Source of the DNA: Alphaproteobacteria bacterium
Lineage (GTDB): Bacteria > Pseudomonadota > Alphaproteobacteria > Micropepsales > Micropepsaceae
Direction: 5' to 3'
NCBI GenBank assembly: GCA_016783965.1
Contig: JADHVO010000001.1
Location: 186,001-250,000 of the forward strand
Length of the DNA stretch: 64,000 bases
In this document: positions 59,283 through 62,453 of the stretch, one piece after another
Position numbering within the stretch: position 1 is the first letter of the stretch
Layout of the letters: every line of letters starts with the position of its first letter
Notes under the pieces: model-generated
The model's database searches: none
The model's input: the letters and a program-made list of their open reading frames with translations, nothing else
Told to the model about the DNA's origin: nothing
Program-made: the position numbers and the translations under genes

Positions 59283-59525
59283 ATGCCGACGGTGCTGATC
59301 TGGAACGGTTATCGCTTCTATTTCTTCAGCAACGAGGGCAATGAGCCGCCGCATATCCATGTCGATCGCGGCGACAATAGTGTAAAGTTGTGGCTCGAAC
59401 CTGTTTCGGTAGCGCGCGCCTTCGGCTTTCCACAGCGCGAAGTGCGCGTGATTGCCGAGAAGGTTACAGAGGAACGCGAAAGGTTCTTGCAGGCTTGGAA
59501 TGAGTACTTCCGCAATCACCGCTGA
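59283..59525 (+). CDS. DUF4160 protein
   Basis: An 80-residue protein starting PTVLIWNGYRFYFFSNEGNEPPHIHVDRG, the DUF4160 signature, and ending in a helix with ERERFLQAWNEYF. It begins one base after DUF971 and its last 26 bases overlap a DUF2442 gene in another frame. DUF4160-DUF2442 neighbours are frequent in bacteria and have the look of a two-component small module; a toxin-antitoxin role has not been established to my knowledge. Confidence 0.85.
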   Translation: MPTVLIWNGYRFYFFSNEGNEPPHIHVDRGDNSVKLWLEPVSVARAFGFPQREVRVIAEKVTEERERFLQAWNEYFRNHR

Positions 59526-59754
59526 CGCCCGCGTTCAGGACGTGGAGATTACCGACGACGCTCTTATCGTGCTTCTGCGCGACGGGCGGAAGGTGAGCGC
59601 GCCCCTGAGTTGGTTTCCGCGGCTAAAGAACGCGTCTGCGGAACAGAGGGGCGCCTGGGAAACGAGCGCTGCGGGCCACGGCATTCACTGGCCGAAGATC
59701 GACGAGGATCTGAGCGTCGAAGGGTTGCTGCGCGGTCAGCCGGCGCCGCAATAG
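59500..59754 (+). CDS. DUF2442 protein
   Basis: An 84-residue protein with RVQDVEITDDALIVLLRDGRKVSAPLSWFPRL and IHWPKIDEDLSVEGLLRG, the DUF2442 pattern. ATG 59500 lies inside the DUF4160 gene in another frame (26-base overlap), implying tight translational linkage. Upstream in-frame codons are open but run through DUF4160. The pair is inserted between DUF971 and a DUF402 gene. Confidence 0.83.
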   Translation: MSTSAITADARVQDVEITDDALIVLLRDGRKVSAPLSWFPRLKNASAEQRGAWETSAAGHGIHWPKIDEDLSVEGLLRGQPAPQ

Positions 59755-59757
59755 GCC

Positions 59758-60408
59758 ATGACTTGGAAGCCAGGCGCCACGGTGGTGGTGCGCAATATCG
59801 CGCGCTCCGACGAAGGCGTGACCGCGGCGATGGCTGCCATCGCTGTCCAGGACGGTGACGACGCGCTTGCGCTATATGTGCCCGTCGGCACGGTCGCAAA
59901 AGACAACTACGTCGTGCCGGAGAAGGATCGCGTCGCCGCGGTCGGCATGCGGGTGGCGTCGCGCGCACGTCTCTTTGTCGAGCGCGTGTGGCAGGTACCG
60001 ACCATCCGGCTGTATCTGCCCGACACGGCGTTTTCGGTCTGGTTGTTCTTTGGCACCGGTGGCGCGTTTGCATCTTGGTACGGCAATATGGAAGCTCCGT
60101 ATCAACGGACACCGATCGGCGTTGACGCACAGGACCATGGCCTGGACGTGGTGGCCGACGCGAAAGGCCGCTGGCGCTGGAAGGACGAGGCGGAGTTCGC
60201 ACGGCGGCTGGAACTGGGCGTCGATTCCGCCGAGCATCAGGCGGCGGTCCGTGCCACCGGCCGGGACTTCATTGCGCGGCTCAAGGCCAACGCGTCACCC
60301 TTCAATCGCGGCTGGCAGAACTGGCGCGCGCCGGACGGGTGGACGGCGCGGGCGCTTCCGGACGGATGGGACGCCGACTACGGCACGCATGCTCCGCCGC
60401 GCTCCTGA
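59758..60408 (+). CDS. DUF402-domain protein
   Basis: A 216-residue protein. The middle contains IRLYLPDTAFSVWLFF and FASWYGNMEAPYQRTPIGVD, followed by DHGLDVVADAKGRWRWKDEAEF, the metal- and phosphate-binding pattern of the DUF402 (FomD-like) barrel. FomD relatives hydrolyse cytidylyl phosphonates or nucleotides. The rest (DFIARLKANASPFNRGW, then WTARALPDGWDADY) is typical of the family. It starts three bases after DUF2442. The natural substrate is unknown. Confidence 0.8.
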   Translation: MTWKPGATVVVRNIARSDEGVTAAMAAIAVQDGDDALALYVPVGTVAKDNYVVPEKDRVAAVGMRVASRARLFVERVWQVPTIRLYLPDTAFSVWLFFGTGGAFASWYGNMEAPYQRTPIGVDAQDHGLDVVADAKGRWRWKDEAEFARRLELGVDSAEHQAAVRATGRDFIARLKANASPFNRGWQNWRAPDGWTARALPDGWDADYGTHAPPRS

Positions 60409-60468
60409 CAAGCCCTGCCCTCTCCTTCGGCGATGCTCTCTTTGTTATGGTTCGAACGGGAGAGCGTC

Positions 60469-60924
60469 ATGCTGCGAGTCGATCACGTTGTCTTTCCGGT
60501 TTGGGACGCGAAGGCGAGCCTTGCCTTCTATCGCGATGTCATGGGGTTCGCGCTGGTCGACACGTTCAGTGGCGACGACTGGGGCGGCCATCCCTGGCTG
60601 ATGATGATCTTCGCGCCGGGCGATGGGCGCGAATTGGTGCTGGTGGCACTCAAGGGTGCGAGGAAGCCCAGGACTTACGGGCCGGCGTTTGAACTGCCGC
60701 ATCTCGCCTTCGCCGAGACTTCGGTGAAGGCACTGAGCGCCTGGCGCAGGCGGCTGGCGGCGGCCGGCGTCACCATCCGCGAGGAACGGCACGGGCCGAG
60801 ACAGTCGCTTTACTTCGAGGACCCGAACGGGCTGACCATCGAGGTTACCGCGCCGCCGGCCAGGGCCCGCGGCAAAACGCGGCCGAAGGCGCTGGCCGCG
60901 GCGCAGGCGTGGATCGCGGCATGA
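60469..60924 (+). CDS. VOC-superfamily protein
   Basis: A 151-residue single-module VOC protein: VDHVVFPVWDAKASLAFYRDVMGFALVDTF at the start and SLYFEDPNGLTIEVTAPP near the end, with the family's terminal Glu. His near the N-terminus and Glu near the C-terminus could bind a metal. A Lys/Arg-rich tail follows. GGGAGAG precedes ATG 60469. The stop overlaps the channel gene's start (ATGA), so the enzyme and channel are coupled. Confidence 0.82.
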   Translation: MLRVDHVVFPVWDAKASLAFYRDVMGFALVDTFSGDDWGGHPWLMMIFAPGDGRELVLVALKGARKPRTYGPAFELPHLAFAETSVKALSAWRRRLAAAGVTIREERHGPRQSLYFEDPNGLTIEVTAPPARARGKTRPKALAAAQAWIAA

Positions 60925-61835
60925 GCACTCCGAACCAGCGTCCCGTTTCGCCGCCCAACCTGGCGCTCAGCCGGCCCGGCGCCCGCCTCGCCATCGTGAA
61001 GGGGCAGGACCGTTCGCGCTGGACCGATTTCTATCACCTGATCCTGACGGTGACGTGGCTGGAGTTCTTCGGCGGACTGTTCGCGTTCTTCGTCGGCCTG
61101 AACCTGATCTTCGTGGCGCTCTATCTTGCCGACCCAGCGGTTCTGGCGCATTCGCGGCACAGCGGCTTCTGGGACGTGTTCCTGTTCAGCTTCCAGACGA
61201 TCGCCTCGATCGACTACACCGGCTTCGCGCCGCAATCGACCTACTCCAACATCGTCGTCGCGATCCAGGGCTTCTTCTCGATCCTTACCACGGCGCTGTT
61301 CACCGGCGTGATGTTCGCGCGGTTCTCGCGGCCCTTTGCACGCATCGTGTTCTCGCGCTGCGCCCTGGTGCTGCCGTTCGACGGCGTGCCGACGCTGATG
61401 TTCCGCGCCGCCAACCAGCGCGGCAACTCGATCGTCGACGCCGAGGTGCGGCTGACCATGGCCAGGCAGCAAACCTCCCGCGAGGGCATCGTGATGCGGC
61501 GGTTCGAGGACCTGAAGCCGTTCCGCGCCCGGTCGTCGCTGTTCGCGCTGTCGTGGACGATCATGCACCGGATCGACCGGCACAGCCCGCTGTACGGGAT
61601 GACGGCGGAGAAGTGGCGCGAGCAGCAGATCGAGGTGGTCGTGATGCTGAGCGGGCTGGACGAGGCGCTGGCCGACCGCATCTATGCCCGGCACTCCTAT
61701 TCCGCAGAAGACATCGTTTGGGATCACAAGTTCGTGGACGTGATCTCGTCGCACAACGGACGGCGCGTGGTCGATTTGACGCGCTTCCACGATACCGAGC
61801 CGCTGTGCCTTGAGCCGGATATGCGGGACGCCTAA
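60921..61835 (+). CDS. Kir-type channel-fold protein with a non-canonical selectivity filter
   Basis: A 304-residue member of the inward-rectifier K+ channel family. Two membrane helices (about 47-70 and 107-130) flank a pore helix, and the cytosolic immunoglobulin-like domain follows (VLPFDGVPTLMFRAANQRGNS). Aligned without gaps to KirBac1.1 (ATVGYGDMHPQ), the filter here is ASIDYTGFAPQ: Ser96-Ile-Asp98-Tyr-Thr100 replaces Thr-Val-Gly-Tyr-Gly. Both glycines that give K+ its carbonyl ring are lost and an acidic side chain enters the pore. K+ conduction as in Kir seems unlikely; another ion or no conduction is possible. Coupled to a VOC gene. Confidence 0.85.
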   Translation: MSTPNQRPVSPPNLALSRPGARLAIVKGQDRSRWTDFYHLILTVTWLEFFGGLFAFFVGLNLIFVALYLADPAVLAHSRHSGFWDVFLFSFQTIASIDYTGFAPQSTYSNIVVAIQGFFSILTTALFTGVMFARFSRPFARIVFSRCALVLPFDGVPTLMFRAANQRGNSIVDAEVRLTMARQQTSREGIVMRRFEDLKPFRARSSLFALSWTIMHRIDRHSPLYGMTAEKWREQQIEVVVMLSGLDEALADRIYARHSYSAEDIVWDHKFVDVISSHNGRRVVDLTRFHDTEPLCLEPDMRDA

Positions 61836-61847
61836 CATCCCTCCGCC

Positions 61848-62453
61848 ATGGACAAGTTCGACAAGCTGACCGGCGTCGCGGCGCCCCTTCCGATGATCAA
61901 TGTCGACACCGACATGATCATCCCCAAGCAGTTCCTGAAGACGATCAAGCGCACCGGGCTCGGCGGGGCGCTGTTTCACGAGATGCGGACCAACGAGGAC
62001 GGGTCGCAGAACCCGGACTTCGTGCTGAACAAGCCCGCGTACACGAAGGCGCAGATCCTGGTGACGGGCGAGAATTTCGGCTGCGGCTCGTCGCGCGAGC
62101 ATGCGCCTTGGGCGCTGCTCGATTTCGGGATCAAGTGCGTGATCGCGCCGAGCTTCGCCGACATCTTCTACAACAACTGCTTCAAGAACGGCATTTTGCC
62201 AATCGCGCTGCCGCAGGCGGACGTCGACAAGCTGATGGACGATGCGGAGCGCGGCGCGAACGCCGTGATCTCCGTCGACCTGGAGAAGCAGGAAATCCGC
62301 GGGCCGGACGGCGGCTGCGTCAAGTTCGAGATCGATCCTTTCCGCAAACAGTGTCTGCTAAACGGCTGGGATGACATAGGCCTGACGCTGCGGCACGAGA
62401 GCGACATCAGCGCGTTCGAGGCCAAGCGCAAGCGCGAGATGCCCTGGGCGTAG
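61848..62453 (+). CDS. leuD: 3-Isopropylmalate dehydratase small subunit
   Basis: A 201-residue small subunit of isopropylmalate isomerase in leucine biosynthesis. Signatures are [14 protein letters not shown] near the N-terminus, [19 protein letters not shown] and [17 protein letters not shown]. Normal length. The large subunit leuC is not in the window; leuB starts 1 kb further on in the same direction but is separated by an enoyl-CoA hydratase gene and two palindromic repeats. Confidence 0.95.

Follow-up and report, generated by a model that had tools for sequence, protein, structure and literature searches.

The TxGYG filter has been treated as nearly invariant, and how ion selectivity can change without destruction of the channel is an open question. 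K+ filters require alternating left-handed and right-handed backbone angles that are easy for glycine alone, as was stated for Kir2.1, and a mutational scan of the same channel showed that the filter is tolerant for surface expression and sensitive for function (PMC9273215), so that the fold can survive such filter changes. Kir channels with altered filters have already been published, the NirBacs in 2015 and TbIRK in 2017. NirBac1.1 and NirBac1.2 do not discriminate among monovalent cations, and Ca2+ is kept out by NirBac1.2 (PMC4607889); a flux that rises with POPG counts as a further mark of the group. In the weaver form of GIRK2 the first filter glycine is replaced by serine and K+ selectivity is lost (PMC9001731), and in HKT a serine replacing glycine in the first loop accompanies Na+ selectivity (PMC7918770). 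TbIRK, with the filter GGYVG, favours K+ with a pK/pNa above 7 (PMC5429665). Since the NirBacs are non-selective but TbIRK is K+-selective, loss of the motif alone does not settle the permeant ion.

The channel gene and its filter

The gene studied here (Table 1) lies in the window, by which we mean the whole stretch of 64,000 nucleotides that was analysed, and its reading frame contains no internal stops. The Kir fold, proposed for it in a sequence-only reading, was confirmed by Pfam (IRK_C, 4.9e-29), by phmmer (KirBac3.1, 5.5e-66; KirBac1.1, 8.4e-66), by an AlphaFold2 model built from 54 homologues (mean pLDDT 87.9) and by Foldseek, whose top match for the model was KirBac3.1 with a TM of 0.81 (by query) or 0.87 and an rmsd of 1.8. 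The model has the Kir-family architecture, a pore helix flanked by two transmembrane helices and a beta-rich cytosolic domain; it is a model of the monomer, from which filter geometry is not reliably readable. The start codon of the channel overlaps the stop of the upstream glyoxalase/VOC gene (ATGA), so translation of the two genes is probably coupled.

Table 1. Positions, in window coordinates, of the channel gene, its parts and its immediate neighbours
Feature	Position	Strand	Remarks
Glyoxalase/VOC-family gene, upstream neighbour	60433..60924	+	Not kept beside the channel in most relatives
Kir/KirBac-family channel gene	60921..61835	+	304 aa; ATG at 60921, stop ends at 61835
First transmembrane helix	61056..61127	+	Residues 46-69; AlphaFold2 secondary structure
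Pore helix	61167..61205	+	Residues 83-95; contains Trp84; AlphaFold2
Selectivity-filter pentapeptide SIDYT	61206..61220	+	TCG ATC GAC TAC ACC; residues 96-100; position of TVGYG
Second transmembrane helix	61239..61328	+	Residues 107-136; FARFSRP motif at its end or just beyond; AlphaFold2
Cytosolic Kir domain IRK_C (PF17655)	61344..61802	+	Residues 142-294; Pfam
leuD (Aconitase_C), downstream neighbour	61848..62453	+	Kept as neighbour in many relatives

The pore aligned to KirBac without a gap in phmmer, with FSFQTIASIDYTGFAPQ in the window channel and FSVETLATVGYGDMHPQ in KirBac, and SIDYT occupies the exact place of T[VI]GYG with both filter glycines lost, just as had been noticed from the letters alone. 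The protein thus lacks the TxGYG K+ selectivity filter of the Kir family, and it joins full-length Kir homology to a non-TxGYG filter, the combination that marks a NirBac in sequence. Misreading of the filter through a frame error or an alignment gap was ruled out by the ungapped alignment with KirBac and with the orthologues, and a register shift taking YTG as the filter was ruled out by the relatives, which read SINYSVM and have no glycine there. The closest relatives, 73% to 74% identical, carry the filters TINYS and SINYS, while exact SIDYT was confined to the window genome among the orthologues read, being the sole one with Asp; the Asp codon GAC is one base from the Asn codon AAC. The conserved feature is therefore S-x-N/D-Y-S/T and not exact SIDYT: the window's filter is a variant, with Asp in place of Asn, of the S-x-N-Y-S/T filter found throughout the clade.

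Filters and selection across the genus

An orthologue of the channel was present in 40 of the 69 genomes of the genus, with no stops within the match in any of them. These 40 orthologues, 48% to 74% identical to the window protein, carry 16 distinct filter sequences, and as read from the DNA 29 of them are without GYG and 11 retain it. The non-GYG filters are SINYS (13), SINYT (2), SLNYN (2), SIAYT (2), one each of SIDYT (the window), TINYS, SVNYT, SANYT, SIPYS, TISYT (L085) and AGAGG (L087), and one each of the Tyr-less forms SVN-S, SVN-T and SSN-A; the GYG filters are TLGYG (6) and SIGYG (5). The relatives are mostly fragmented assemblies, and three one-contig genomes (L051, L052 and L072) bear SINYS or SINYT.

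Residues were compared over the 28 non-GYG channels whose filters begin with Ser or Thr, with AGAGG left out. Asn stood at the first Gly position (residue 98) in 23 of the 28, the residues seen there being N, D, A, P and S, and the filter Tyr was kept in 25. The gain of an Asp, which the sequence-only reading had noted, is therefore real in the window but not the defining feature of the filter, given the Asn in 23 of 28 and in the nearest kin. Trp84, a residue where the pore helix begins, was found in all 28 and in none of 20 outside sequences, and among the GYG orthologues only in the two of L068 and L081. The latter two genes (L068:1189-2091 and L081:4980-5882, both on the minus strand) have SIGYG, and their pore helix (FRFSVHTIASIGYG) combines Trp84 with Arg88 and His92, which was seen in none of the other GYG channels compared. 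In L058, L060 and L073 the filter Tyr is deleted (SVN-T, SVN-S and SSN-A) and the Pro four residues past the filter is lost too, so that the two changes seem coupled; L087 is likewise without this otherwise conserved Pro.

Outside the genus the Kir channel is rare, being found in 12 of 385 genomes of a class sample (two of them within the genus) and in 16 of 398 genomes of a phylum sample, the window's genome included. All 22 readable filters outside the genus end in GYG, among them that of a Kir, 47% identical, from a sister genus in the family, and in the sample examined the altered filters are confined to one genus. A distant-subgroup KirBac, 36% identical and with TVGYG, was seen in another genus of the family (L101), and it groups with L046 and L047 and not with the genus clade.

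Whole-gene pairwise dN/dS was 0.11 to 0.45 over the close pairs tested and similar for non-GYG and GYG pairs, with upper 95% codon-bootstrap bounds of at most 0.62. Between the window's gene and its three closest relatives the values were 0.34 to 0.45 (upper 95% bounds 0.48 to 0.60), which places its own subclade at the higher end. Of the 13 SINYS genes, seven encode the filter Asn by AAC and six by AAT, and the residue is unchanged. The dN/dS values together with an Asn kept through silent codon changes show that the altered filter is conserved and not decaying, in agreement with the sequence-only reading, which had inferred the same from the conserved flanks, and a pseudogene was ruled out by the intact reading frames and dN/dS. 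What had been asked of homologues, namely that the filter type be conserved in a clade, holds for the non-GYG state, which characterises a clade and is under purifying selection, and not for exact SIDYT, present in one genome only. The same reading had named TxGYG in close homologues as what would speak against it; some orthologues of the genus do have TxGYG or SxGYG, but these are not the closest ones.

The locus and the history of the filter

The orthologues were syntenic at one locus wherever the flank sufficed. A thioredoxin-TPR gene and a gene with a LON substrate-binding domain lie upstream of the channel in 37 of 39 loci, that is, in all with enough flank, and leuD and leuB lie downstream in many relatives; the intervening genes are variable. 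In the window leuD starts 12 bases after the channel and is followed by an enoyl-CoA hydratase gene and leuB. Two further short stretches, which we tentatively guess to be trm112 and DUF971, are also often conserved at the locus. From 59283 to 60924 of the window, the genes between the thioredoxin/LON block and the channel (DUF4160, DUF402, VOC) differ among species of the genus, and by its gene content this stretch is a local insertion/deletion hotspot. Nearly all carrier genomes have just one copy of the channel; G005 has an extra C-terminal fragment of 80 residues. Recent horizontal acquisition and paralogy were ruled out by one full copy per genome, a fixed neighbourhood and a neighbour-gene tree which largely matches the channel tree. 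Carriage by a phage or plasmid was ruled out as well: no phage record or viral contig matched, and the plasmid matches of the channel were distant Kirs only.

The channel protein tree was built without the filter columns. In it the window's channel joins its TINYS and SINYS relatives with support 100/99. The tree requires no fewer than four switches between GYG and non-GYG, and three of these are forced by well-supported branches. A tree of the neighbour genes trx, lon, leuD and leuB, in which the channel was not used, gave much the same groups and also four changes. The p-values of the topology tests that follow are optimistic, as the clades were named after the tree had been viewed. A single clade of all non-GYG channels was rejected by the AU test (p = 0.002), and with it a single clean loss of GYG. 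L068 and L081, with SIGYG, fall within the SINYS lineages in both trees and their placement outside was rejected (p = 0.024); they are also the only GYG channels that keep Trp84. Most simply read, GYG was probably rebuilt in them from S-x-N-Y-S. For the TLGYG group, which has ancestral-looking flanks, a position outside the non-GYG clade was not rejected (p = 0.165), and this group need not represent a second reversal. In the neighbour-gene tree L088 (SIGYG) adjoins the SINYS lineages, which would imply more than one loss of GYG. On these trees the filter changed in at least three or four events, with a direction supported for L068 and L081 alone.

A fuller history, which we put forward tentatively and would not give an even chance, is that the chromosomal Kir locus of this alphaproteobacterial genus exchanged its K+ filter for an S-x-N-Y-S/T filter of distinct selectivity, diversified it (Asp, Ala, Pro, Ser, Tyr-less forms and AGAGG) and rebuilt GYG in at least one lineage. 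The window genome also encodes a separate six-transmembrane channel whose C-terminus resembles a cyclic-nucleotide-binding domain and whose filter is the canonical TVGYGD (C11, about 319947-320177, L102), and with this channel in place the Kir locus could dispense with K+ selectivity. In open-licence PMC papers we found no description of the S-x-N/D-Y-S/T filter, its genus-wide spread and repeated switching at one syntenic locus, the Tyr-less forms or the probable regain of GYG, and nothing relevant on further natural Kir filter variants.

The genus is a natural experiment on the evolution of ion selectivity, as one gene with a constant chromosomal place has switched repeatedly between the K+ filter and others: 40 orthologues share one locus and a fold of solved structure, with filters from canonical to strongly altered and probably with reversal. 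If the fuller history is true, these orthologous genes would form a natural series in which the K+ filter was both lost and regained. Filter swaps between close backbones would reveal the letters that set selectivity and the permissive changes in the scaffold (Trp84, residues 88 and 92). Annotation as an inward rectifier potassium channel is unsafe unless the filter is read.

Permeation and comparison with known Kir channels

The explanation we favour, with moderate confidence, is a tetrameric KirBac-type cation channel similar to the NirBacs, with weak or no discrimination between K+ and Na+ and gated from the cytosolic side as in other KirBacs. The Kir scaffold would be retained from slide helix, M1 and pore helix through M2 with its bundle crossing to the cytosolic domain, with TxGYG replaced by S-x-N/D-Y-S/T. 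Asn and Asp are the non-glycine residues commonest in the left-handed backbone shape, and Ser or Thr at the second Gly position is harder to fit to it. Asn or Asp at the first Gly position would tolerate this shape and a filter-like loop can probably still form, while with Ser or Thr at the second the exact stacking of carbonyl cages fitted to K+ has probably gone. A cation pathway with little or no K+/Na+ discrimination would be expected, through which Na+ and K+ probably both pass. Among altered Kir filters, those of NirBac1.1/1.2 and weaver have lost K+ selectivity and that of TbIRK is K+-preferring, and for this reason we place most weight on a poorly selective monovalent channel, followed by a K+ channel with a substitute filter, a non-conducting pore and a divalent path. 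The suggestion from the letters alone of a different ion, an amine path or a non-conducting sensor is not supported as written, these options being indistinguishable by the present analysis. Against the poorly selective channel, the variety at the first Gly position and the three Tyr deletions would also fit relaxed constraint on a pore with little need to conduct well, and the TbIRK precedent, the higher dN/dS of the window's subclade and the presence of SIDYT in one assembly only are further points.

A channel still preferring K+, in which Asn or Asp adopts the left-handed shape of the first Gly, Ser or Thr is tolerated at the second and a K+-like filter persists, is unlikely in our judgement but has several observations on its side. 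Besides the selectivity retained by TbIRK, the dominance of Asn at the first Gly position is what would be expected if backbone shape were under selection, the Tyr is mostly retained, and the probable regain of GYG in L068 and L081 implies that the scaffold around the filter has kept its ability to hold a K+ filter. However, both glycines are gone and Ser or Thr at the second position does not favour the left-handed shape, Gly-to-Ser at the same position of GIRK2 abolishes selectivity (PMC9001731), and previously altered KirBac-type filters were non-selective (PMC4607889). Somewhat less likely still is a pore that does not conduct, the protein being anchored in the membrane as a sensor or scaffold and working through its cytosolic Kir domain alone, with the lipid response of that domain. 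The filter letters are more variable (mean entropy 0.92) than those of the genus's GYG channels (0.40), three relatives are without the Tyr and the following Pro, and L087 has AGAGG, all of which would suit such a protein; yet the pore helix and M2 are still conserved (entropy 0.68 for the pore helix versus 0.98 for the cytosolic domain), and exact SINYS is kept in 13 diverged orthologues despite silent changes.

We regard it as very improbable that the window's Asp ring forms a divalent-cation or metal path resembling the acidic residues of Ca2+ and bacterial Na+ channels: an acidic residue does stand in mid-filter, in the window channel alone, but the neighbours have neutral Asn, the Asp may be a near-neutral one-base change (AAC to GAC), the side chain in a K+-type filter would face behind the filter and away from the pore, and no metal-homeostasis gene was found adjoining the channel. 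Decay or an assembly error in a single strain, least probable of all even with SIDYT in one genome and a slightly faster evolving subclade, is refuted as the cause of the non-GYG state by the intact frame, dN/dS clearly below 1, conserved synteny and 28 other non-GYG orthologues including those in one-contig genomes. A sequencing error could account for an Asp where Asn should stand, though not for the disappearance of the two glycines.

Compared with KirBac3.1 and KirBac1.1 (TC 1.A.2), the window channel has whole-length homology, the same fold and an ungapped pore, with about 41% identity to KirBac3.1 in the structural alignment; it differs in SIDYT versus T[VI]GYG and in having Trp84 where the pore helix begins. 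TbIRK is likewise a Kir-family channel without TxGYG (PMC5429665), but it is eukaryotic and still K+-selective with its GGYVG. In GIRK2 weaver the same filter position is changed, and TISYT of L085 has exactly the Ser found there (PMC9001731), but weaver is a disease mutation with the second Gly intact, whereas in the genus the change is fixed and selectively kept. The NirBacs, NirBac1.1 and NirBac1.2 of Anaeromyxobacter and NirBac2.1 of Gemmatimonas, share with the window channel a prokaryotic Kir scaffold with a non-canonical filter (PMC4607889; Zubcevic et al. 2015). The P-loop of NirBac2.1 around its filter TTGTD is still alignable, while those of NirBac1.1 and NirBac1.2 are without any similarity to KirBac (PMC4607889). 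As compared by their published description, the NirBacs have other filter sequences and belong to another bacterial class, whereas in the window's genus the channels with GYG and those without it are orthologous and share one locus. Because GYG orthologues exist inside the genus, an origin independent of the named NirBacs is likely.
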